Both the position numbers and the translations under genes were made by a program. 64,000 nt of DNA, taken from contig CM077155.1 in assembly GCA_039583875.1 (NCBI GenBank), positions 10,156,043 to 10,220,042 on the forward strand, read 5' to 3'. The number at the start of each line of letters is the position of its first letter. The stretch's first letter is position 1. Below the pieces are notes generated by a model. That model had not been told where the DNA came from. It searched no databases and saw nothing but the letters and a program-made list of their open reading frames with translations. Source of the DNA: Platanthera guangdongensis. Lineage: Eukaryota; Streptophyta; Magnoliopsida; Asparagales; Orchidaceae. Below are positions 4,077 to 63,203 of the stretch, in pieces.

Positions 4077-4396
4077 AAAACCCAGAATGGTTCCTACAAC
4101 TCAGACTTCAGCAAGTCCTACAGCTCAGATCCTCCCAGAGAATCCTACCTCAGAGTGACTCCACACTCCTACAACTCAGGCAATCAAGCCCTACCTCAGC
4201 CTCTTCAACTGGCCTACAAATCAGAGAAATTAATCTCCTACCTCAGGACTCAGCCCTACCTCAGCCTCTTCAACATGCCTACAACTCAGAGAAATTAATC
4301 CCCTACCTCAGGCACTCAGCCCTACCTCAGCCTTTATAGATTTAGGCTTACAACTCAGAGAGATAACTCTCCTACACTCAGATCTATAAAAGATCC
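4077..4396 (-). other. Leader hairpin array of Cop-1 (about 14 units)
   Basis: On the plus strand, units follow the pattern CTCA-arm-loop-complementary arm-CTAC. Arms seen are AACC/GGTT, GACTT/AAGTC, GAGTG/CACTC, GGC/GCC, GCC/GGC, GAGA/TCTC, GGC/GCC, GCCT/AGGC, GAGAG/CTCTC and GATC/GATC. About four units are weak or decayed. Stem sequence changes from unit to unit while complementarity is kept. The array lies downstream of the TATA box, so it should be in the RNA leader. Confidence 0.8.
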
Positions 4397-4739
4397 TACA
4401 GTGAAATTGATTACCAAAACAAATAGAACCTTCACCCAGGTAGAGAGAGAAAGGGTTGAAGGTTTTTTTGGTCAGTTCTTGATAGATCTGACAGCTTTAG
4501 ATCCAACCTATCTTAGCTTCTTCAAAGCTTCTTGAATTTGAACAAAGTAAGGTTGATCTTCTTGGAGATGATCTTCAATCAGCTTCCTTCTTTTGATTCA
4601 GATGTGGCTCTGAATTCTTCGTGCAGATTTGTTCTGGATCTTCCCTTAGAGACTTGTTGATTTCTGGATGAAGACTTCTCTTCTTCCTCTTAGTTGTTGG
4701 TTGTCTCTTCTTGTTCATTTTTTGTTGATACAATAGGTC

Positions 4740-4747
4740 TTTATATA
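4740..4747 (-). promoter_or_regulatory. TATA box of the Cop-1 LTR
   Basis: Minus-strand TATATAAA lies about 170 bp downstream of the palindrome array and about 960 bp before the LTR end. It occupies the same place as TATAAATA in Cop-13, so it probably sets the U3/R border. Confidence 0.65.
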
Positions 4748-4914: not shown

Positions 4915-5304
4915 GTGTCGACATAAATAGATCATGTGTCGACACAATCCTTGGTGATGTCGACACAGCTCACATAATGTCGACACAGATCTTCTTTTTC
5001 TTCTTGACACAGCTTCTATGAAATGTGTCGCCACAAGTCCTGTGTGTCGACACAATAACTTTTAGTCTCGACAAAGTTGATGTTGACAGAATTCTGGAGT
5101 GTGTCGACACAAGTCCTGTGTGTCGACATAAGTGTTGTCGACAGAATTTTGAAATGTGTCGACACAAGTCCTTCTTGTCGACACAGTTGTTGTCGATAGA
5201 TTTTCTATGTGTCGACACAAGTCCTGTGTGTCGACACAATCTGGCTCCTGGTGTCAACACAGCTCTTCCCAAGTGTCGACACAATTTTTGTCAAGTGTCG
5301 ACAC
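4915..5304 (-). repeat. GTGTCGACAC palindrome array in Cop-1 U3
   Basis: The perfect 10-bp palindrome GTGTCGACAC and near copies (TGTCGAC, GTGTCGCCAC, GTGTCAACAC) recur roughly every 20-30 bp between otherwise unrelated spacers. The array is upstream of the TATA box in element orientation. Several variants differ by C-to-T or G-to-A, as expected for decay of methylated CG. Confidence 0.88.
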
Positions 5305-7002: not shown

Positions 7003-9891
7003 TGATGAATTGTAAATATACGTATTTTTGTATACATTAATTTAGTTGTTTTCATTTATTTTCGTCATTTTTACTTATTTTTGCTCAATAAAATGCTCCT
7101 ATTTTATAAATATATTACTAACTTATTTTATTTTATTTTTCAGGAAAAAACAAAAATCTGCCAAAAATTACAAAGTCACGCCCGTGACATATTGGTCACG
7201 CCCGTGACCAGGGCGTGACACGTCAAATTCCAGTGAAATCAGGAAATTTTGAAGAGAAATGCTTGACACGCCCAGCGTCACGCCCATGTCACCCGACACG
7301 GGGTGTGACCAAAGCCCGTGTCCACCCGCTCGACATTTTCTGCTCGACGTTTGTCGAGTGTAGACACCACCCAACACGCCTAGAGTCACGCCCGTGACCT
7401 AGGGCGTGACACCTCTTCCCGCTCGACGATTTTCAACTCGACATTTTCCGCTCGACGTTTGTCGAGTGTCGACACCAACCGACACGCCCAGAGTCACGCC
7501 TGTGACCTGTGGCGTGACATCTCCGTCTGGCCGACAAGACCCGCGCGACGACATTTTGATGCACCGCGCCCAGATACAGCTGCTTGACACGCCCAGCGTC
7601 ACGCCCGTGACCTGGGGCGTGACCACTGCGAGACCGACACATGTCCAGCCCGAAGTCAACTTTCTCGTCAAATCGCCGGCCGCCTTCTCAAATAGTACTA
7701 ACACGCCCATGTCACGCCCGTGACCAAGGGCGTGTCCCATGTAAATTTTTGTCTATAAATTCCAGTGTTCTGCTTGAGTTCCTGTTCCCCTTTTTTGAAC
7801 CATTTTGCCTTAGGGAGGTGCCGCCTAGATGTATTCCAATGCTATGTAAGGGAAATTTCTCCCCCTCTCCTTAGTTTTTGTTTTCGTTCTTTTGTAACTC
7901 TTTTTTCAGCTTAATGAAATGTTAAATTTTTTATCTTCTTGTGTTATGTTGGAATGGATCTAAGCCCCTCTTTATGCAATCTTATTTATGCTTTGCTTTA
8001 GCTTTTGTTTTTCATTCTTTTAAATGAGTGTGTGTGTGTATGAGTGTAAATGTTACGTTTACATTTTCATAATTTCGTTACTTAGACTTGTTTAGATTGT
8101 GATTGTTATAGCTTTACTTGCATTCATATAGATCCGTCAAAAACGTTTTCAAAGTGATTTTCATTTATTTTAACTTAGATTTTTTCCCCTTTTTTTGGTT
8201 GTAAAACTTTTTCGTTATTTTCAGTTTATTCTCACTTTTTTAGCACTTTTACGGAGTTATAGGAATGATAATATAGTCGTTTTAATTTTTCGTGCACTTT
8301 GATTTTTCTTTTAAACTTTTGCTCCTTTTATTTTTCTGTCTTCATTTTAATCATTTCTACCGCATTCTAGCGGTAAAAATGTATTCATTTTTATTTTTAG
8401 AGCATTTTCATTTTGCATTTATTTGCAAAAACGTTTGCTCCATTTAATTTTTATTTTCACTTTTTATGCATTTCTACCGCATTCTAGCGGTAGAAATGCA
8501 GTTGTTTTCATTTTTAGATAACTTAGTTTTTTACATTTTTGTACTTATGCATCTATTTTCACCTGCTCGTTAGAGTTAAATGACGCTTTGCTTTATTTTA
8601 ATTCTGTCGAGTGTGTGCGTGTGTTTGTAATTTTCTTTATTTCCGTCTACTCATTCGAGTTAAATGGCAGGTCTTTATTTTCCCTACTCATTTGAGTAGG
8701 ATTTGTGTGTGTGTGTTTTACTTTATGTCGAGAGAGTGTGTGCGTGAGTTTTACTTTATGTAGAGTGCGTGCGTGTGTTGCATTTATTTAGTCCTACTCG
8801 TTTGAGTAGGACACGCTTTCTTTCTCCCGCCCACGCATTTGCGCCGGGACTCGCAATTTACAGCTTTCTTTAGTCCTACTCCCTTGAGTAGGACTTGCAA
8901 TTTTCAGCTTTCCTTTACTGCTTTCATTTTATCGCTTTCATTTACTGCTTTCCTTTACTGCTTTATTTTCTGCTTTTCCTGCAAGCCGTCCCCATTCCGA
9001 TGAGTGGCTAACCGTTCTTAGCCCTCGGTATCGAAGAGCATTGGGACAGATAAAATAGCTTAAAATAACTAAAGGTCTCATTTTTCTAATTAATTAAAAG
9101 TACTTAAGGTTTGCCCGGGATTAACGACGCGTAGGACCACATATCGATGTGTGGGCCCTATTTTCGTTTTCCATACGCTCGCCGAGAGGCCGTGCGTATG
9201 GACAGATCACCCTTTGGCAAAGAGAGTTCCGCACTAACCCTCGAGAGAGGAGGCGCGCCAACTCTACCGGATTGGGTTCCCCACCCAATAGCGGGGTTCT
9301 TAGCGTAATGCGGGCGTTAAGAGGAATCCTTCGTCGGACGAGAGCCCGGTCGAATAGTCATAGCGTTCAGGTGAGCGATAGCCCTATAGCTAGGTGAGCT
9401 CATTCTAGTGGAAGCTCCACGGCCAAGTCTCCGCCTTAATTAATTAGAAATTTAGGAGCTCTTTTTATTTAAAGTCTATTTTAGTTCAATTGTTTTTTCG
9501 GTGCCATCGAGCTAAGCTCTTTATCGGCACCACCTTCTAGCTTTCTTTTTATGCTTTCTTTTTACGTTTTCTGCCTTTCTTTTATTAGATATAAAAATAT
9601 TACCCGACAAGTAATTATCGGTAAAATAATAGTCCCCTCCAGGGAAGAGTAGAAATAATCGAACCGGCCCCGAGAACAATACGACCTCGATATTCCACCC
9701 GGAATATCCTGTACTACTCACAATAGGTGCACTTGCCTCCTTTCGTTAAAACTCCATCTAACCCGTTTTATATCCAAATAAATAAATACGCGCTCCCCAT
9801 TTTCTAAATAAAAAAAATCACTTCCGCTTTACTTAAATAAAACCGCCGGGGCGCCGCGCTTCATAATAAATTTTTGAAGTTTTAACCACCA
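7003..9891 (+). repeat. 5' LTR of Nonauto-3 (2.89 kb)
   Basis: It runs from TGATGAATTG to TTTTAACCACCA. The first 740 bp are rich in GTCACGCCCGTGAC and GTCGAG motifs. The middle is T-rich with small hairpins and TG microsatellite (about 8028-8040). 9115-9420 is a GC-richer block, and the tail is AT-rich. It has segments missing from the 3' LTR (about 8820-8880 and 9841-9870). Confidence 0.93.
7175..7736 (+). repeat. GTCACGCCCGTGAC / GTCGAG motif array, Nonauto-3 5' LTR
   Basis: GTCACG-CC-CGTGAC inverted repeats and shortened forms (GGGCGTGAC, CACGCCCAGCGTCACG) alternate with GCTCGAC and GTCGAGTGTCGACAC. Open frames on both strands here are side effects of stop-poor GC-rich repeats. Confidence 0.85.
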
Positions 9892-22002: not shown

Positions 22003-22203
22003 TGTTAACCTAAATTACCTAGAGGGGGGGTGAATGGGTGAGTTATGCGTCTTTTGCGGAATAAAAAAAATCTTAGAACACAGCACAGATCTATCTACTA
22101 AAATATCACAGACGAGACAAGATTTATAGTGGTTCCCCGATCTTGGGTACATCCACTTTCCCTCACCGATCTAGCAATAAACTAGACTCGGCTACTCCAC
22201 TAT

Positions 22204-22344
22204 CTCGGATTGAAAATCAATCCTACCCTCGGAACAAAGTTCCTACAATCTCAATCCAATCCACTGAATCTACAACTCGGAAAAAACACCTTCCTATAAA
22301 CTCGGAGTGGAAAACTCCTACACTCGGAGAAAAATTCTCCTACC
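22204..22344 (-). other. Leader hairpin array of LTR-5 (5 units)
   Basis: On the plus strand, units follow CTCG-arm-loop-arm-CTA. Arms: GGATTG/CAATCC, GGAAC/GTTCC, GGAA/TTCC, GGAGT/ACTCC, GGAGA/TCTCC. The constant flank is CTCG here instead of CTCA. Confidence 0.8.
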
Positions 22345-22629
22345 GAAATGAAATTCAAGTATTGGAAAATACAAACAGTGAAATCGTCTAATTCAGATAT
22401 GAAAATAAAACAGAAACTGGAATCTTCTTCTTTGCGTTCAGCTTTATCAGAAAAGTTGAAAAAGGATTCTCGGCAATCAGTAGATCTGAACTTCTTGCTT
22501 CCACGATCGGACAGATGATGAGTATGTGAAAATCGATCTCGATCTGGAGAGCTTTTTCTGTGTATTTCCTCTGAAGATCGAAACCCTTGCCGGAGAAGAA
22601 CAGTGGCGGCGGCGGCTTTCGTTCCGTGA

Positions 22630-22749: not shown

Positions 22750-22757
22750 CTTTTATA
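22750..22757 (-). promoter_or_regulatory. TATA box of LTR-5
   Basis: Minus-strand TATAAAAG lies about 125 bp downstream of the ACTCGAGT array and upstream of the hairpin array, as in Cop-1 and Cop-13. Confidence 0.6.
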
Positions 22758-22880
22758 GGAGTACTAATAACGGTCATAATCAGTTTTAATGACGTACACG
22801 TGGAACAATCATATCACGATATTTGAAAATCTGTCAAATCTGGACTTAGAAGAAATTTCAGAGAAAATGAAGTCATATAC

Positions 22881-23543
22881 ACGAGTAGGTATAAAACTAC
22901 TCGAGTAGGTCAAGGACTACTCGAGTAAGCAGAGTGAAATTACTCGGGTATACAAATCAAGACTACTCAAGTAGGTTAAAGACAACTACTCGAGTGTATA
23001 TAAGCAATTACTCAAGTACGTTGAAGATCTACTCGAGTTCATAGAAAATTTGCTCGGGAAGGAGTTGAGCTACTCGAGTACAAGTTATACTACTCGAGTA
23101 GGCAGAATTGAACTACTCGAGTGATTAGAGGAACTACTCGAGACAAACACTTAGAAATATTCTGCACACGGGAAAACAGCTAACCTAACTACTCGAGATA
23201 AGAGAAATCTTCTCGAGTATATGAAATACTTACTCGAGTATATCTTAACTACTCGACATAGAGAAGATTGTTACTCGACACAGTGTCGAGACTTACTCGA
23301 GTATATGACTTAGACTACTCGAGTGTTTTACTTAGAAAAGTTTGGAACCTGAATTCTGGGCAACTCGAGTAGGAAGAATGATCTACTGGAGTAGTTAAGT
23401 AAGCTACTCGAGTATGTCAATGAACTACTCGAGTGTTTTACTTAACTTCACGAGAGGAAAAATTTTCTTACTCGAGTATACAGACGTTTCACTCGAGTAT
23501 ATCTCAAGCAATCTACTCGAGTAGTTAGGGACCTACTCGAGTG
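22881..23543 (-). repeat. ACTCGAGT palindrome array in LTR-5 U3 (about 27 sites)
   Basis: CTACTCGAGTAG, its 8-bp core ACTCGAGT, or one-base variants (ACTCAAGT, ACTCGGGT) occur about every 18-28 bp for 660 bp. Spacers are unrelated to each other. Two sites read ACTCGACA, close to the GTGTCGACAC motif of Cop-1. Confidence 0.92.
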
Positions 23544-27960: not shown

Positions 27961-28340
27961 ACCAAACCGCAGACAGGAGACGGAGTACCATTCACAACAA
28001 AAAGTTGAGGAGATAGGTTATTGAAAGTCTTTGTTTTCAAGGATAGCTAAATCACCTAGAGGGTGGGGGGGTGTGAAAAGATTTCTTAGTACTTAGTGAC
28101 TATCTTTTGTTTTCTTTGTTATTAGAGGCTTTATAAGTTGATTAGTTGAAGCTTTCAAGATATGCAACCTGCAATAAAACCAGCACAAAGAAAACACACA
28201 AAGCATACTGGATTTATAGTGGTTCCCCTAACTTGGGTACATCCACTTTCCATCCCACCTATCAAACTATCTTGTTGGACTAGGCCAAACTCCTCAAAAT
28301 ATGCTCCTTAAAGCTTACACCTCAGGCCCTCAGCATTACA

Positions 28341-28721
28341 CTCAGAACACCAGCAAGTTCCTGCACTCATTATCCTTTTCAGGACACCTACCTCAGAACT
28401 GACAGGTTCCTACCTAAAAACCCTGCAGTGCTCCTACACTTAGTGAACCTCAAGCCACCTACCTCAGGCTTACACAAAGTCCTACAGCCCAGGCTTCTCA
28501 GCCCTACAGTTTCAGGAACACATCCAAACTCTCAGAGTGCTGCAACACTCCTACAGCTCAGTACCAAACAGGTACCTACCTCAGTGCCCTTCCAAGGACC
28601 TACAGCTCAGTGATTAATTAATCACCTATCTCAAGCACAAGTGCCCTACCACTCAGATCCACACTTGGATCCTACCTCAGAGCAACTTTGCTCCAACCAC
28701 TCAGATCCAAAAGGATCCTAC
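28341..28721 (-). other. Leader hairpin array of Cop-8 (about 12 units)
   Basis: Plus-strand units CTCA-arm-loop-arm-CTAC have arms GAAC/GTTC, GAAC/GTTC, GGCT/AGCC, GAGTG/CACTC, GTACC/GGTAC, GTGATT/AATCAC, GCAC/GTGC, GATCC/GGATC, GAGC/GCTC and GATCC/GGATC. Two more (GGCTT/AAGTCC, GTGCC/GGAC) are imperfect. Closing pair G-C and flanks are constant, inner pairs vary. Confidence 0.85.
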
Positions 28722-28738
28722 AAGATGAAAGTGGGTTG

Positions 28739-28743
28739 GTGAG
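28739..28743. repeat. Target-site duplication GTGAG of Cop-9 (partner 57311-57315)
   Basis: GTGAG stands directly outside TGAAAGTGAGG (28744) and directly outside GGATCCAACA (57310). Both copies are exact, although 28.6 kb now separates them. Confidence 0.95.
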
Positions 28744-29156
28744 TGAAAGTGAGGGGTTAGATCTGGAATACTCTAGAGGGGGTGAATAGAGTATCCTTAC
28801 AAAACTTTACAACTTTTTGCCACAAATAAAACTTATGAATAAAACTATCGTAAGTTAAGTTAATCTACCACATGTGCTGTAGAATATAAACTAATTAAAT
28901 ACTAACACAACTATCCTAACTAGCACAGCCACAGTAAGAAACAAAAGAAAAGAGCAACTAGACAACACAAGAAATTTATAGTGGTTCCCCAACCTGGGTA
29001 CATCCACTCTTCTACCACCCTTATAGGAATCCACTCCAAATTTTGATCAGGTGCCTAACACCAATGAGCTTTTGATCATGTGCTCAAAAACCAAACCTCA
29101 AGTCTTTTGGTCAGGTGACTTGCAATCAGGAATACCTTTTGAATGGAGTTAAGAAC

Positions 29157-29404: not shown

Positions 29405-29812
29405 GGCACACGGCCTGCGACACGGGCGTGTCGCAGGGCGTGTCGAGGCCGTGTCGACACTCGGTCCAAGTGTCGACACTTTCGCTCGACAAAGTGTCGA
29501 GAGTAGGGCACACGGCCTGCGACACGGGCGTGTCGCAGGGCGTGTCGAGGCCGTGTCGACACTCGGTCCAAGTGTCGACACTTTCGCTCGACATTGTGTC
29601 GAGAGTAGGGCACACGGCCTGCGACACGGGCTTGTCGCAGGGCGTGTCGAGGCCGTGTCGACACTCGGCCCAAGTGTCGACACTTTCGCTCGATAATGTG
29701 TCGAGATTGGGGCACACGGCCTTTGACACGGGCGTGTCACAGGGCGTGTCCCGCTTGGTCGATGATCTTCGCTCGACATTTTTCCGCGGTGTCGACACAA
29801 AGCCTGTCGACG
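29405..29812 (+). repeat. 102-bp tandem repeats, Gyp-11 5' LTR
   Basis: Units start at 29405, 29507, 29609 and 29711 (the last diverging). Each has GACACGGGCGTGTC, GGGCGTGTCGAGGCCGTG, two GTGTCGACAC-type palindromes and GCTCGAC. The length is a multiple of three with few stops, which creates false open frames on both strands. Confidence 0.93.
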
Positions 29813-36757: not shown

Positions 36758-39362
36758 TGTAACACCCCAGTTTTGCAAGAGAGTCAGTGTGCAGTTCTGG
36801 AAAATTTTGGGTTTCTAGCAGGAGGCACACGGCCTGCGACACGGGCGTGTCGCAGGGCATGTCGAGGCCGTGTCGACACTCGGTCCAAGTGTCGACACTT
36901 TTGCTCGACAAAGTGTCGAGAGTAGGGCACACGGACTACGACACGGGCGTGTCGCAGGGCGTGTCGAGGCCGTGTCGATACTCGGTCCAATGTCGACACT
37001 TTCGCTCGACATTGTGTCGAGAGTAGGGCATACGGACTGTGACACGGGCGTGTCGCAGGGCGTGTCGAGGCCGTGTCGACACTCGGCCCAAGTGTCGACA
37101 CTTTCGCTCGACAATGTGTCGAGATTGGGGCACACGGCCTGTGACACGGGCGTGTCACATGGCGTGTCCCGCTTGGTCGACGATCTTCGCTCGATGTTTT
37201 TCCGCGGTGTCGACACAAAGCCTGTCGACGGGTGTCGAGACTTGGCACATGGCATGGGACACGGGCATGTCCCAGGCCGTGTCACCTCTCGGGTTGGTTT
37301 CGGGGCCGTGTCGTTGGAGGCACACGGTCGTGTCACTGGGGACACGGGCGTGTCAGATTGAACACGGGCGTGTCGGATGCCCGTGTGCATTTCCAGGCGC
37401 GTCGATTTGAGACAGCGAATGAGGCACACGGCCCTGGACATGGGCGTGTGCCAGGTCGTGTTCGGCCCAGGTCTTTTATTTTCCAGGCGGATCGTGGCCA
37501 TTCTTTCCCAGATTTTAGGATCTGATGGTTCAGGACTGTTCTTGTTGAGTTAAGTCCGAGAATAGGGTTGAAAACCATCATTCTCTTCCAAGCTTTCTCT
37601 TACTAAAGATCTAGAGAGAAGTGAGGACAAGGGAGAAGGGGAAAGAGAGTTCGGACTGTAGGAAGGGTTTTGGTGCTCCAAATCGCGAACCGAGTCCAGA
37701 TCCGTGGCGCTTAGATCGTTGCGAAGGTTTTCATCCGGCTATTTTGCCATGGCAAGGAAGAGGAGTCGGAAGGTAACGACATTTCTCCTCTCGGTCTTTA
37801 GGATGCATGTTTTAGCATCGTTTTCTTCTAGATTTTGGGCACCAACCACTCGAATGAGAGGTGTTTTGGTTGCCAAGGTTCAAGAAGAACCTCCGGGTCA
37901 ATTGAGTCCATCCCCGGCATATTTTGCATTAGAGATCCGCTCCGCTAGTGGATTACGCATGGTGGGTGAAGCCGTAGTCGCGACCGTTAGTCTGACTCGG
38001 TGATGTTGCATACGAACTTAGGGATTCGTAGAGTTTCCGATGCGGCAAGATGCCGTTTGTGATGTGGTGGTGATTTTCCCTTTTGCTTGAAAGAGTACGT
38101 GTGGTCGGAACCGGGCAAGGTTAGCTCCTCGTAGCGGTAGATGGTTTCCTTGGGGGACAAGGTTAGCTCCGTATGAGTTGGAGATGGTTTCCTTGGTTGA
38201 CAAGGTTAGCTCCGCACGAGTTGGAGATGGTTTCCTTGGTGCGCGGGAACGCTGCAGTACAAATGAGGGATTAGGGTGGTTTAGTCTTAGTTTGTGATGT
38301 GCCAAGGCGTGGCTATGTCTCCGTGGTCGGCTGGCTATCTCGTGACATGTACGTCATGCGTGGAGAGTGTCCCGGCAAGACTAGTCCCCTTCTGTGAGAC
38401 TGACGAGAATGCCAAGCTTGGGGCAAGCCCGGGCAATGAGGCCATGAGCAGGTGGGGTCCAGCAAGGCTTCTTAGAATCAGTCAGTTTGTGTTTGTTGGA
38501 ATCCTGACATGAGACGTCAGAATTTACAGGCAAGCCCGGGGCTAAGCCTTTGAGCGGGTGGGGCCTAGGCAAGATTCCATGTGGCGGCCTGTGTGCCGTT
38601 TGAGGGAGTTGTGCCTCCCTTAGTGTTTGCAGCTTTATGCCAGTGGGGAAATGATGAGTACCCAATTGATGTGATGTTGTGCTAGATGCATACACAGTAG
38701 GGTGCCTTGGGTGAAACCCAGGTGTTGCATTCATGTTGCATAAGTAGGCCCTTTTATTAAATGCTCAACCAGTAGAGAACGTGTATGTTGATTCAGACAT
38801 CCAAGCCTGATTTAATGCATTTCTATTTATAGATATTTATATTGCATACGAAGTGCTGACTTGCAGGTTGGAGGGTTCCCCGGGGTCCGTTAGGGGCGGC
38901 CGGTAGGAGATGTGTTGTTACACAGTTTGAGGTCAGCCTTTGCTGACCCACGTTTCTAATAAATTTTACAGGGCAAGGATCGCATGCAGGAGCTAGCACG
39001 CCGGCCAGAAAGGCCCAAGCCCCATGAAGTGTTTTATTTTTTGTAGCGCTACTGTTATGATGTTGTATGATTGAGACTCTTTTGTCCGGCTTGCATGCCG
39101 AGGTAGACTAGGAGTGTTGTGCACATTCTTGACTGCTATTCTTTTTACTTGAGTTTGGACTTTTGTTGTAAGGCCCTAAGGCCATTGTTGTGACTCTTAT
39201 AGTAGTGGATAACTTCTAGTCGTGCTTTGTTTCCGCTGTGTTATGCAAGCGTTTTGAGTTTGGGTAGCTATATCAACTTATAATACTAAAGCTGTGGCGT
39301 TCGTATGTTGTGGGTCCCCGGCCGGACCCATATTATACGGTCATTACAGGGGAGGTGTTACA
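36758..39362 (+). repeat. 3' LTR of Gyp-11 (2.61 kb)
   Basis: Co-linear with 29339-31945. The 102-bp units start at 36824, 36926, 37027 and 37129. Motif copies show C-to-T and G-to-A differences from the 5' LTR. Confidence 0.95.
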
Positions 39363-55384: not shown

Positions 55385-55800
55385 ATTGAAAGTGAGGGGT
55401 TAGATCTGGAATACTGTAGAGGGGGGTGAATAGAGTATCCTTACAAAACTTTACAACTTTTTTCCACAAATAAAACTTATGAATCAAACTATCCGAAGTT
55501 AAGTTAATCTACCACAGGTGTCGTAGAATATAAACTAATTAAATACTAACACATATATCCTAACTAGCACAGCCACATTAAGAAACAAAAGAAAAGATCA
55601 ACCAGACAACATAAGAAATTTATAGTGGTTCCACAACCTGGGTACATCCACTCTTCTACCACCATGGTAGGAATCCACTTAGATTTTTGATCAGGTGCCT
55701 GACACCAATGAGTTTTTGTTCAGGTGCTCAAAAACCAAACCTCAAGTCTTTTGATCAGGTGACTTGCAACTAGGAATAACTTTGGAAGGGAGTTAAGAAC

Positions 55801-57120: not shown

Positions 57121-57310
57121 CTCATTTTTGATTCTCTAAAAAACTCTAAGTCTAGAGTCTATATGCAGTCTATTGATAGCTGGTCCATGTAGTGTTAACT
57201 CTAAGGACTTGGCCTATACTCTAAAACATAACCATGACCCTGGCTATACATGTTGGGTTAGATGATCCTAACTTAGTGAACCTAGCCCAAATCAAACTAG
57301 GGATCCAACA

Positions 57311-59409
57311 GTGAGTCTTGATTGGACATAAAAAAAATTTCTCTCTGCCAATCTACCTTGGCCGAGTTAAACTCAGCCCAACTTTAACATCAGGAATTTA
57401 TTTCCTGAGTCTACCTATAATGAACTAAGATTTACTTAGTCCTAACTACTTCACAACAACAAGTATATATTTACTTGAGAATGAAGTGACTTGCAGAACA
57501 ATGTTCTGCCCTTCTCTGAACTGAACCTGAAGCTCAGCGCTAACTTCTTATTCATAACACCAGTGATATTCCTGTTGGAGCTGTGAAGTGACTACAGCAC
57601 AAATAGCTACAAACTGAGCTTAAAGTTTCTCAGCTCAACTTCTTCAGAGCAACAAGTATGCTTGTGCTGGAAGCAACTTGCAGAACCCTGTTCTGCCCCT
57701 TATTTTTTCCTGGGCTGAGGTGATTCAGCCGTAACTTTGACTCCTAAGGAATATTCTGCCGAGCCTTCTTTTAGATCTCTGCTTCATCAAGCTTTCTTCT
57801 CTTCACAGCTTATAGATAAAGATCTTCAGGATATTGCTTATATAACTGGAACTGTAAAGGATCTGCAGCAGGGGTCGCCCCTTGGCTTCTTTCTCTTTCC
57901 TCTGAGAAATAATTTGAACTTGCTTACTGGTTCGGGTGAGAATGACACCAACTATCTTTCTTGAGATCACAGATCCTGCAGCTGGGGTTAGGCCTTAGCT
58001 GCTTTCTTTTCCTCAGAGTTTAACTATGAACTTAGTGAAGTTGATGAAGAAGATAACAACTAACTTACTCTTCGTCTTGCTGACTTGAGCTTCCTGTTTT
58101 TTAGCACAACAACAATGGCTATGAAGAAGAACAGCCAGATGGCTCCTCAAAATAAGGCTGCTTTCCTCTATAAATCCTTTTCCTTTTATTGATTATGACC
58201 TAGCGACTCTTTGAGTAGTGGGCCCCACGCCATTAATGTGCAACAACAACCTTGCTTTAACTCAACTGTCGTACAGTAGATCTGCGGCAAGATTTATTGC
58301 ATACTGTAACCACCCGCCACTAATTTGAAATATGTTGACTTGTGGACTTGTTAACTTCACCAGCTGTGGACGTAGCCAAAAATTAAGCATCATTAGTATA
58401 GGTGTTGAGTGAGGGTCCTTCACTCAGTGCCAAATCACTTAGACAGATTTACTTTCTCTTGGCGTTGAGTGAGTTGCCTTCACTCAATGCCAAACAACTT
58501 AGAATATAAATCTGTTTCTAGGCGTTGAGTGAATCAGCTTCACTCAACGACAACTTGCTTTGCTCAGCTTTATGCTGCTTGGCGTTGAGTGAGTGAGCAT
58601 CACTCAACGCCAAACTCCTTAGACAAAATTCTGTCTTCACTAGGCGTTGAGAGCGTTGAGTGTGTCTTCATGACTCAATGAGTTTTGTCCTAGAAAAATC
58701 TTTCTGTATCTTAGGCGTTGAGAGCAAACTCTGTTCGACGAACTCTGAACTCAGCTCGATGAATTCTGAACTCAATTCAACTAGCTCAGAATCTCAAACT
58801 CTGAGCATAGTTCGACGAACGATGAGATCAGCTCGACGAATTATGAACTTAGTTTGACTAACTCAGATTCTCAAGCTCTGAGCTTAGTTCAACGAACTTT
58901 GAGAACAACTCAACGAACGATGAACTTAGTTTGACTAACTCAGAACTCAGTTAGACTAACAGCTTTTTGCTGGGTGGCATTGAGTGTGTCTTCATCACTA
59001 AATGCCAAACTACTTAGTCATATTTCTATCTTTAGCTTTATGGCATTGAGTAAGTCAAGTCCACTCAACGCCCGTGGACATAGCCATATTTCCAGGTTGC
59101 CAATAGTTACTCTTAGAGTAAATAATCTATATTCAACATTTTTTGCTTACCTGGCATTGAGTGAATAAACTTCACACAATGCTTGTGGACTTTGGCAAAT
59201 TCCTGCCTTTCCAGCATCTTCTCTTATTGTCCAACTTTCTGCCCTATGACCACCTATCACATCACTTGGACAATCTGTCTGGACTTGTTCCATGAAACAT
59301 CATGCACATTATGAGCTTAAACAACATCAAATACAGTTATGCTCTTAGTGTTAATGGTGATGCCTCTTCAAATCCACTCTAGGGAACATTGTGGGCAATG
59401 CACCTAACA
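57311..59409 (-). repeat. 3' LTR of Cop-8, promoter-side part
   Basis: On the minus strand it begins TGTTAGGTGCATTG at 59409, after the tract AATAGGGGGAGAT. It holds hairpin and TCGACGAA motif arrays (58401-59186). 57316-58400 is gene-free and has a TATA-like TATATAAG (minus, about 57840). It continues at 28738. Confidence 0.85.
58401..59186 (-). repeat. GGCGTTGAGTGA hairpin array in Cop-8 U3
   Basis: Eight or so hairpins of GGCGTTGAGTGA-loop-TCACTCAACGCC type recur every 60-70 bp, except for a gap filled by TCGACGAA-type motifs (58729-58950). The best is a perfect 14-bp stem with a 7-base loop (58579-58592 / 58600-58613). Most others differ by CG-to-TG or CA changes. Confidence 0.88.
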
Positions 59410-61142
59410 ATCTCCCCCTATTTGAAGAAGGCAGAACACCCAGCAATACTAAGAAGCATTAACATAAAAAGCAGATTAACTTTATGTACACCATTTAACT
59501 GCATTGACTCAATAAATCAAGTCAATGCATACTTATACTACTTGAACAATTGCTCAAGTAATATGCACCCTCCTTTATACCACTTAATATTTAAATGGAG
59601 AAATAATAAAAGCACTGACTCAACTTGACCTGATCATGTTAAGTATTACTTCCACATATCCCTCTTATGTATTGCCTCCCATCTCCCCTTTTCTGGCTTC
59701 TTCAATAGGTATATCTATTATGGGAGGAGATTGGATCAAGGGAGAGATTATCTCTTGATCATAGTCAAAGTCCTATGTTGATACTACTAAGAAAATTAGC
59801 CTATTAATCACACCACTTGAATAGGGGTCATAGCTTTTGTCTTGATACATTGAAACCACACAACACTGTATCGCTTGAACTTGCTGCACACATAGTTCCA
59901 CTTACTGGTGACACCACCTCACTACAGCCCCTTGACTCTTGAATGAACCATGGATCCACTTGAGCTGACTGCTAGCTATTCCTCTTCTCCTGTAACAATA
60001 CTGTTTTATCAGCAATAGTCCTTCTTAGACTCAAAGAAGATTATGACTATGTCATAAGAAATCTCCCCCTTAGTCTGTGCAATGTCCTTAGGACAAACTG
60101 ATCAGCAGTGAAGATCTCTGATCATCTACAATAGCTAGTTGCTCCTTCTCAACAGTAGACTGATCCGGTTCCAGCAAGTGCTGGACTTGCTTCCCTCAGC
60201 AGGAGCACCACTATAATCATATCTAATGGACACATAAGTCCATTTAAGTCCTGATACCACATGAGAATCTTTTGAAAGACACTAAAATTTCTGTTTGGTA
60301 ATTTTAAGTTCGACGAATTTTTCAGATTTCGTCGAGCTCTGTTCAACAAATTATTCTAATTTCTTCGAGCTCCGTTAGATGTATGATGGTGATTTCGTCG
60401 AGCTCCATTCATGCCGATGCTTAGCAACTCCATAGCACTTGAAAGCCTTTTTATAGTATTGATATTACCTCAAAAATAATCTTCCATAGAGCTATTACTG
60501 GATTTACAGCCACTGTGCACAGTAAATCCCTTGCACCTTTCACAGTCTCTTATTTCTGAGCCAGATCTTCTCCCCTTTTTTAGCAACAGACTTGCCTTTA
60601 GCTTCAGCTTTCTTATCAGCAACACAAGAGTGTTCAGCCCACGGAGTACTATCTTGATCATTATATTGATCTGCCCACTTGATCACTCCTTTCTTGGTTT
60701 CTGAATAGACAGGGAGGAGCTGGTCTGCTTGGATTCTTTTCTCCCTTTAGCTGATTGCAAATGATACTAATGGTGCAGCTGCCAGCTTTCTCTTATCATG
60801 AGGCTGAATTTTCTTCTGCAGTTGCTGACTTTGAGACCATTTGAACCTTGAATGATCTTTCCTTGAAACATCATTTCATTCTGATACCAAGTCTTTCTTT
60901 ACACTACTATTCCAAATAGGAATGAGCTGACTTGTATCAACAATAGCTGAAGCAATCCAGCTGTTCTTGTAAACTGATTTGCTTGTCATCTTCAACCAGG
61001 TGCCATTACTGGGTAGTTTCCCTCTCAGCCTCTGCACTGTCCATAGGAACAAGCTGATCCTCAGCAGTAATGCTGATCTATTCTATGTTGGGGAAACTCT
61101 GGATAAGAATCAAGATTGTTCAGCAACCTTGACTGAACATGA
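59410..61142 (-). other. Internal 3' region of Cop-8, no intact gene
   Basis: The purine tract is at 59410-59423, and a second tract (minus AAGGGGGAGAT) at about 60061-60070. A related but decayed copy of the latter's surroundings lies near 61015. TCGTCGA motifs occur at 60310-60410. Short minus frames (60149-60349, 60470-60661) show no recognisable domain. Repeated purine tracts before the 3' LTR are known in Sireviruses. Confidence 0.6.
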
Positions 61143-61444: not shown

Positions 61445-62436
61445 GTGTCGACACCCAGAGGAAAAGTGTCGACACTTGAGAAAGCTTGTGTCGACACCCA
61501 GACAAGTAGTGTCGACACTTGAAGTCATTGTGTCGACACCTGGAATGAAGAGTCGACACCAGTCAGAAAGTGTCGACACTTGGAGCTGTGTCGACACTCA
61601 GTGAAGAAGTATGCAGAAAAGCTGTGTCGACACTTAGCAGAAGTGTCGACACCTAGAAGAACTGTGTCTACACCAGAAAGTGTCGACACTTGGAGCTATG
61701 TCGACACTCAGCAAAAGTATGCAGAGTCTAAGTAAAAGTGTCGACACTCAACACAATGTGTCGACACTATGCTGAAGAGTCAGTATTTGAAGTAAGTGTC
61801 GACACTCAACACAATGTGTCGACACTATGCTGAAGAGTCAGTATTTGAAGTAAGTGTCGACACTCAACACAATGTGTCGACACTATGCTGAAGAGTCAGT
61901 ATTTGAAGAAAGTGTCGACACTCAGCACAATGTGTCGACACACAACCAGGAGAGTCAACACTTGAAGAAAGTGTCGACACTCAGCACAATGTGTCGACAC
62001 TTAGTTGAAGACTCTACACTTGAAGAAAGTGTCGACACAAGGAGCTGTGTCGACACTTAGCAAAGAACAGAAAAATTACAAAATATTCTAAGTACAAGTG
62101 TCGACACTAAAGGAATGTGTCGACACTCAGCTGAAGAAACAAAAGTGAAGACTTGTGTCGACACCAAGAAGCAGTGTCGACACTTGACAGTTTCAACACA
62201 TGAAGATGTGTCGACACAAAGAACATGTGTCGACACTTAGAAGAATACAGTTAAAGAATGAAGTACAAGTATTTGTGTCGACACTCAATTTAAGTGTTGA
62301 CACATGCAGAAGAATCTGTGTCGAGACATACAAGGAATTGTGTCGACACCTTGTAGACTTGTGTCGACACTTACACAACATGTGTCGACACTTAGTCTAT
62401 AAGTGTCGACACTTAAGAACAGAAAGTCTCGACACT
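61445..62436 (+). repeat. GTGTCGACAC palindrome array in Cop-13 U3
   Basis: About 40 sites with GTGTCGACAC or TGTCGACA cores in 1 kb, alternating with 10-25-bp spacers. Part of it has expanded as 58-bp tandem units (61738-62028). Confidence 0.92.
61738..62028 (+). repeat. 58-bp tandem repeat x5, Cop-13 U3
   Basis: Units start at 61738, 61796, 61854, 61912 and 61971. Each holds two palindromes, GTGTCGACACTCA and TGTGTCGACAC. The first three are nearly identical. Confidence 0.93.
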
Positions 62437-62568
62437 ATCTGACAGTTAGAGAATTTCAAGAAGTGACTGGTTGACATGACAGCTGCCGATCCAGCCGGTC
62501 TACTGCAACTGTCAGAGGAATCAGAAGTCTGTTATGAACCGGATCAGCCGGTTACCATGAAGGAAGCC

Positions 62569-62576
62569 TATAAATA
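62569..62576 (+). promoter_or_regulatory. TATA box of Cop-13
   Basis: TATAAATA in CCTATAAATAGGC, about 130 bp downstream of the palindrome array and 890 bp before the LTR end. It is a strong plant-type TATA box. Confidence 0.75.
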
Positions 62577-62994: not shown

Positions 62995-63203
62995 GTAGGA
63001 TCCATTGGATCTGAGAGAATTGTAAGCCTATATTATAAAGGCTGAGGGTAGGGCTTGATTGCCTGAGTGTAGGAGTTGAAGAACTCTGAGTGTAGGCCTT
63101 AATTGGCTGAGTGTAGGCCTGGGTGGCTGAGTGTAGGCCTTTGTGGCTGAGTGTAAGGCTTTGGGCCTGAGGTGTAGGAACCTAGTTGGGTTCTGAGCTA
63201 GTG
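62995..63203 (+). other. Leader hairpin array of Cop-13 (9 units)
   Basis: In sense orientation units read GTAG-arm-loop-arm-TGAG. Arms: GATCC/GGATC, AGCCT/AGGCT, GGC/GCC, GAGTT/AACTC, GCC/GGC (three times, 20-bp period at 63100-63160), AGGC/GCCT and GAA/TTC. The array lies downstream of the TATA box. Confidence 0.83.

Follow-up and report, generated by a model that had tools for sequence, protein, structure and literature searches.

The 64,000-nucleotide stretch analysed here (the window) carries four arrays of small hairpins in which the flanks and linkers are constant and the stems differ. The arms covary both between units and between related arrays, which supports the view that pairing rather than stem sequence is conserved. 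The arrays occur in several types of LTR. The host of array A, our main subject, is by its sequence features the LTR of a Sirevirus-type Ty1/copia element.

Array A lies at 28341–28724 on the minus strand, where the original prediction had placed a hairpin array ending at 28721. On the plus strand it reads as CTCA-arm-loop-arm-CTAC units. The element itself runs on the minus strand, and the search pattern GTAG...TGAG put forward with the prediction turned out to be the sense form of the unit, GTAG-stem-loop-stem-TGAG. Within the sense unit (GTAG-G..arm-loop-arm..C-TGAG) the inner pairs change jointly, between flanks and a closing G-C pair that stay constant. Each hairpin comprises 4–7 bp, and the linkers between hairpins, UGAG-N(0-3)-GUAG in the sense strand, are G-rich. 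About 12 units, ten of them with perfect 4–6-bp stems, had been predicted. We read 16 unit positions; about 12 of them, counted by eye, have at least 4 contiguous pairs with G.U allowed, and a strict scan, which asked for 4 or more pairs between TA...GAG flanks, retained 7 units. The other arrays of this design are B (4079–4400, minus strand), C (62995–63200, plus strand), and D (22200–22345, minus strand), the last with CCGAG instead of CTGAG flanks. The next pair outside the constant G-C is G.U in the sense strand (C.A in the antisense) for most units, and G-C in most units of D. C-type arrays repeat nearly one stem (GGCC...GGCT) several times and clearly hold recent unit duplications. A second unit, similar in sequence to TAAGCCTATATTATAAAGGCTGAG, has a fixed place in B- and C-type arrays (B, C, L047, L048, L050, L044a, and L060) and is hardly changed, unlike its neighbours.

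A conserved LTR box, sense GGGGAACCACTATAAA, lies downstream of array A (28213–28228, minus strand). With at most 3 mismatches, it was found at 15 places, one of them poorly matched, in 20 random 10-kb stretches (200 kb in total). Six of these 15 sites carry an array: two in L044 (L044a and L044b) and one each in L047, L048, L050, and L060. At seven other box sites the leader is different and has constant-loop hairpins, resembling by eye those of the window's LTRs E and F. This E/F-type leader (28975–29130 and 55619–55800 in the window; also L041, L042, L045, L046, L052, L058, and L059) shows near-constant GAGC...GCTC and GGTG...CACC hairpins with a repeated ACCTGATCAAAA-like loop. The minus strand of L053 has four perfect hairpins at the corresponding place of the LTR, just sense-upstream of the box near 7354; their stems are distinct and their linkers quite different, which may represent this design with changed linkers. 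The box was absent from three further 5-kb stretches, and its pattern gave no match in the viral contigs.

To set the pairing against chance, units were parsed using nothing but their flanks (TA followed by G or A, up to the next GAG), yielding 100 units in 10 arrays. Inner pairs 3–5 were Watson-Crick in a fraction of 0.763, a value lowered by mis-registered stretches kept in the set (for example in L044b, L047, and L060), compared with 0.302 (sd 0.029) when the 3' arms were re-dealt; none of 2000 re-dealings reached the observed value. Complementarity beyond a shuffled control had been set as a test in the original prediction, and the arms lie far above the re-dealt control used here. In array A alone (10 parsed units) the fraction was 0.833 compared with 0.318 (sd 10%), again with 0/2000, bearing out the predicted combination of constant flanks and closing G-C with covarying inner pairs. 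The observed pairing was reached in 0/2000 re-dealings each for B, L044b, and L050, in 1/2000 each for C, L044a, L047, L048, and L060, and in 2/2000 for D. A position matrix of the 85 distinct units, computed after removal of units shorter than 13 nt, gave z values of 10.9, 10.6, 7.1, and 4.8 at pairs 3, 4, 5, and 6, with off-diagonal values from -3.3 to 3.5; it showed no signal at pairs 1, 2, and 7, of which pairs 1 and 2 are constant. Among the 100 parsed units, 48 distinct 5' arms of 5 nt were counted.

Hairpin density alone is little proof, because an any-flank scan found densities of five perfect hairpins per 160 nt elsewhere too, for example in the gag/pol coding regions of L047 and L060 and in other tandem palindromes; it is the linker-anchored covariation that bears the case. 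The whole-array folding energy was no better than that of shuffles for B (z 0.45 sense, -0.43 antisense), and for A the z values were -2.29 and -2.35, respectively.

Comparison of related arrays gave a similar picture. Two-sided changes kept a standard pair in 35 of 48 cases (33 Watson-Crick, 2 G.U; the rest 1 A.C and 12 other), compared with 21 of 44 in a control with the partners slid by one (12 Watson-Crick, 9 G.U; the rest 5 A.C and 18 other); all ordered pairs of arrays enter these counts, so that differences are non-independent and may count twice, and some aligned units are non-orthologous. For example, GAGTT/AACTC in array C of the window and in L047 corresponds to GAGAT/ATCTC in L060. 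Uncompensated drift of the arms in related families, named beforehand as a refuting outcome, is not the pattern of most of these two-sided changes. One-sided differences, counted twice in the same ordered comparisons, comprised 31 G.U, 15 A.C, 58 other, and 9 Watson-Crick combinations.

The position of the arrays within their LTRs was then mapped. Array and conserved box lie in the downstream (sense) part of LTR A (28037–28744, minus strand; boundaries by eye), together with a C-rich block that is mutated. This part is a fragment cut at 28744 by a later insertion, and no genome copy extends past query position 525. The U3-side part, with GGCGTTGAGTGAG...CTCACTCAACGCC palindromes, lies at 57306–59421 (minus strand; boundaries by eye) and is contiguous with the array in copy L002. 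The later inserted element that splits LTR A, with LTRs E and F, spans 28745–57305 (minus strand; by eye). GTGAG stands on both sides of it, as a 5-bp target duplication would leave, and it holds nested elements, including one whose LTR has a 102-bp tandem repeat (29405–29750, again at 36824–37168).

In three LTRs, a TATA motif separates the U3 palindromes from the array: LTR B (4740–4747, minus strand), LTR D (22750–22757, minus strand), and LTR C (62569–62576, plus strand). The corresponding palindromes are GTGTCGACAC in B (4936–5304, minus strand), CTACTCGAGTAG in D (22878–23541, minus strand), and GTGTCGACAC in C (61445–62440, plus strand). In the sense direction, all three LTRs show palindromic U3 repeats, the TATA motif, about 350–430 nt, the array, the box, and the LTR end. 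The palindromic word repeated in U3 differs from one LTR type to the next and lies upstream of the TATA motif in those LTRs with an assigned motif; in LTR A the word is GGCGTTGAGTGAG...CTCAACGCC (58399–59080). Because it is downstream of the TATA motif, the array probably lies in the R/U5 leader. The predicted placement in a transcribed leader thereby gains support from B, C, and D, but in LTR A (28 kb) no clear TATA motif could be assigned. For another set of Sire LTRs, the available text of PMC3601003 infers a very short R.

The assignment to Sirevirus is based on the following features. In the text available from PMC2829016, the group is defined by a 5' LTR/PBS junction of CA / A(T or G)TGG / TATCAGAGC. 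LTR F of the window reads CA-ATTGG-TATCAGAGC, and LTR B and L060 read CA-AGTGG-TATCAGAGG, with 8 of 9 PBS letters. The junction of LTR A is not intact in the window, and its copy L002 has one further change beyond the B/L060 form. A C-rich block near the LTR end, a putative integrase signal, reads CTATTCACCCCC... in B, C, and L060 and is mutated in A and D. Both junction and block agree with the description in that text. Pfam identified a copia-type Gag in L060 (PF14223 and PF00098) and in the element with LTR F (PF14223). In L060, which bears a C-type array, LTR end, PBS, gag, and pol occur together on a single stretch, and its gag zinc knuckle scored 22.1 bits against a cut-off of 20.8. Within the gag region (L060:1653–3119), about 290 residues separate this Pfam-identified CCHC motif from another one recognised by eye.

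We tentatively propose that the array is a structure-conserved leader element whose G-rich linkers are presented to the zinc knuckles of Gag. Each unit would be an independent hairpin, and selection would keep self-pairing and the constant linkers and leave the stem sequence free. The hairpins would most likely form on the genomic RNA (or the first cDNA made from it) and keep at least a dozen evenly spaced G-rich linkers open. Gag of the same element could then dock on these linkers in a multivalent way through its CCHC zinc knuckles, either in packaging or as a chaperone of reverse transcription, and the differing stems would stop the units from pairing with each other. Transcription, the folding strand, Gag binding, and function are what we infer here. 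This was our first guess because the linkers are conserved and G-rich in the sense strand, the stems are kept only as stems, the gag region of one array-bearing element has zinc knuckles, and HIV-1 NC offers a parallel: according to the available part of PMC7395439, it takes up exposed guanosines. The near-identical stem repeated in C-type arrays counts against a need for the stems to differ.

Folding predictions were made for both strands in sets of 15, 14, and 12 arrays, which exclude L044b and include 6, 5, and 3 of the 40 copies of array A, respectively, besides the window. Folding the sense RNA had been set as a test; the intended pairs had a mean predicted probability of 0.29–0.66 there, but the antisense RNA gave 0.49–0.84 and was higher in 15 of 15 arrays. 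When pairs were limited to 40 nt, the antisense was higher in 13 arrays, equal in 1, and lower in 1. Of the claim that the RNA fold and not the sequence is kept, the covariation of the arms across units and related arrays stands, and the folding does not single out the sense RNA. As single-stranded DNA, both strands formed the intended pairs about equally (0.54–0.80, 12 arrays). In the predictions, the G/U-rich linkers of the sense RNA pair with other segments, and the nearly G-free antisense linkers stay open. Relative to re-dealt arms, native arms raised linker exposure in the sense strand in 8 of 14 arrays (2 equal, 4 lower), or in 10 of 14 with pairs of at most 60 nt, and in the antisense strand in 13 of 14. 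The lower sense pairing, the 4 of 14 arrays with exposure below the control, and the shuffle-like folding energy of B count against the Gag platform.

These predictions fit nearly as well a role on the minus-strand (antisense) cDNA in reverse transcription, where an array in the strong-stop DNA would limit self-priming or pace strand transfer. We consider this role doubtful. In its favour, the intended hairpins are predicted to form better on antisense than on sense RNA, with open linkers, and about equally on both strands as single-stranded DNA. Against it stand this absence of a strand preference as single-stranded DNA and the outer pair, which is G.U in sense for most units. Inner G.U pairs also outnumber A.C pairs, 9 to 4 among the 85 distinct units, which is not significant.

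Slightly less probable again is the absence of any function, with tandem duplication multiplying the units and template switching across imperfect palindromes continually perfecting the arms. Such template switching would yield covariation without selection, and the recent unit duplications in C-type arrays fit this process. If it were ongoing, recent copies should bear its mark. Of 6929 first-look candidates (4.25 Gb, 274 contigs), 40 were scored, giving 43 matching pieces and 40 copies of array A including the window. All 40 copies were aligned, and per-pair variants were counted at 14 of the 16 unit positions of A, with the register of copy L002. Two-sided changes to Watson-Crick pairs numbered 24 compared with 16.0 expected over all 83 pairs, 17 of the 24 coming from one pair of one unit. 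In the unit GGGCAC...GTGCCT, pair 5 is A-T in 20 of 39 copies and T-A in 17 of 39. With two old polymorphic pairs left out, 6 such changes were found compared with 3.4 expected, and 129 of 1000 shuffles reached 6. Ongoing mutational perfecting of the arms is therefore not supported by the recent copies, and the process leaves the constant linkers across LTR types unexplained.

The copies also record how the array decays. Stem columns had the fewest cells deviating from the column mode (5.8%); loops had 9.9% and the remaining columns 8.2%. The commonest unit forms often pair better than the units of the window; for example, GGTGCCTGGAAGGGCACT occurs in 18 of the 40 copies where the window reads GGTCCTTGGAAGGGCACT. 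This suggests that the weak units of the window are mutations of that copy itself, and its array a decayed version of a better-paired one. The tree of the 40 copies is star-like (internal length 0.31, terminal 2.37), and most changes are therefore late decay. Its internal branches carry 8 changes to G.U and 9 to A.C, a ratio that speaks against folding of the sense strand, and its terminal branches 73 and 39; without pair 2, these numbers are 5 and 9, and 44 and 34. One-sided variants of Watson-Crick pairs retained a standard pair in 15 of 26 cases when common to at least 3 copies, a figure inflated by recurrence, many of these variants being C-to-T at pair 2, and in 17 of 101 cases when rarer. 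The former comprised 15 G.U, 5 A.C, and 6 other combinations, and the latter 17, 20, and 64. Methylation could drive the recurrent C-to-T change in the CTG context at pair 2.

An effect on translation or stability of the long leader independent of Gag, such as ribosome shunting or insulation of the 5' UTR, is improbable: the array does lie between the TATA motif and gag in array-bearing LTRs, but such an effect gives no reason for constant linkers. Least likely of all is a DNA-level feature akin to the Sirevirus palindromes, acting as sites for host regulators or as source or target of small RNAs, since the stems have no common word and one DNA-binding protein could hardly read them, 4–7 bp are short for Dicer, and the array is on the opposite side of the TATA motif from the palindromes. 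Its precedents, as far as the available texts go, are the palindromic repeated motifs of Sirevirus LTRs (PMC2829016) and the excess of small RNAs mapping to palindromic Sirevirus regions in maize (PMC10760457).

The Gag platform thus remains our tentative reading: mutually distinct hairpins with constant linkers may form a multivalent nucleic-acid platform whose fold and G-rich linkers are selected and whose stems are free, perhaps kept different against cross-pairing. It could recur as a standard leader component across a large Sirevirus group in plants, for packaging or reverse transcription. Plant LTR retrotransposons make up much of large plant genomes, and to our knowledge little is known of their packaging and leader signals. 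With its covarying repeats and constant linkers, the array offers a concrete candidate for such a signal that can be put to the test. The original prediction knew of no named element of this form; in agreement, Rfam 15 at the gathering score gave no match on either strand of the 64-kb window, and mainly open-licence papers, in the parts available, yielded no description of an array of covarying hairpins on the downstream side of a TATA motif.

Three known systems invite comparison. BARE of barley is likewise a plant copia element, and conserved dimerisation and packaging signals are mentioned for BARE2, but the available part of PMC3735527 describes no hairpin array with covarying stems in its leader. 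The psi packaging signals of HIV-1 share leader hairpins, exposed G-rich segments, and a CCHC Gag, as a functional analogy only; psi consists of a few individual hairpins in the text available from PMC7395439, whereas the array is a long series of one design. Closest are the RM boxes of Sireviruses, many short palindromic units in the LTR of the same kind of element (PMC2829016; siRNA link in PMC10760457, both as far as available). In RM boxes a single word recurs, on the upstream side of the TATA box; the array instead has distinct stems, constant linkers and, in B, C, and D, a downstream position, and so differs from RM boxes in both word repetition and place. LTRs of the window carry both, the U3 palindromes of B, C, and D each repeating one word. 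Palindromic repeats in Sirevirus LTRs were thus already known from these sources, and the covarying array on the other side of the TATA motif, which the available texts do not describe, is a candidate structure-selected element now set apart from the sequence-repeated U3 palindromes.
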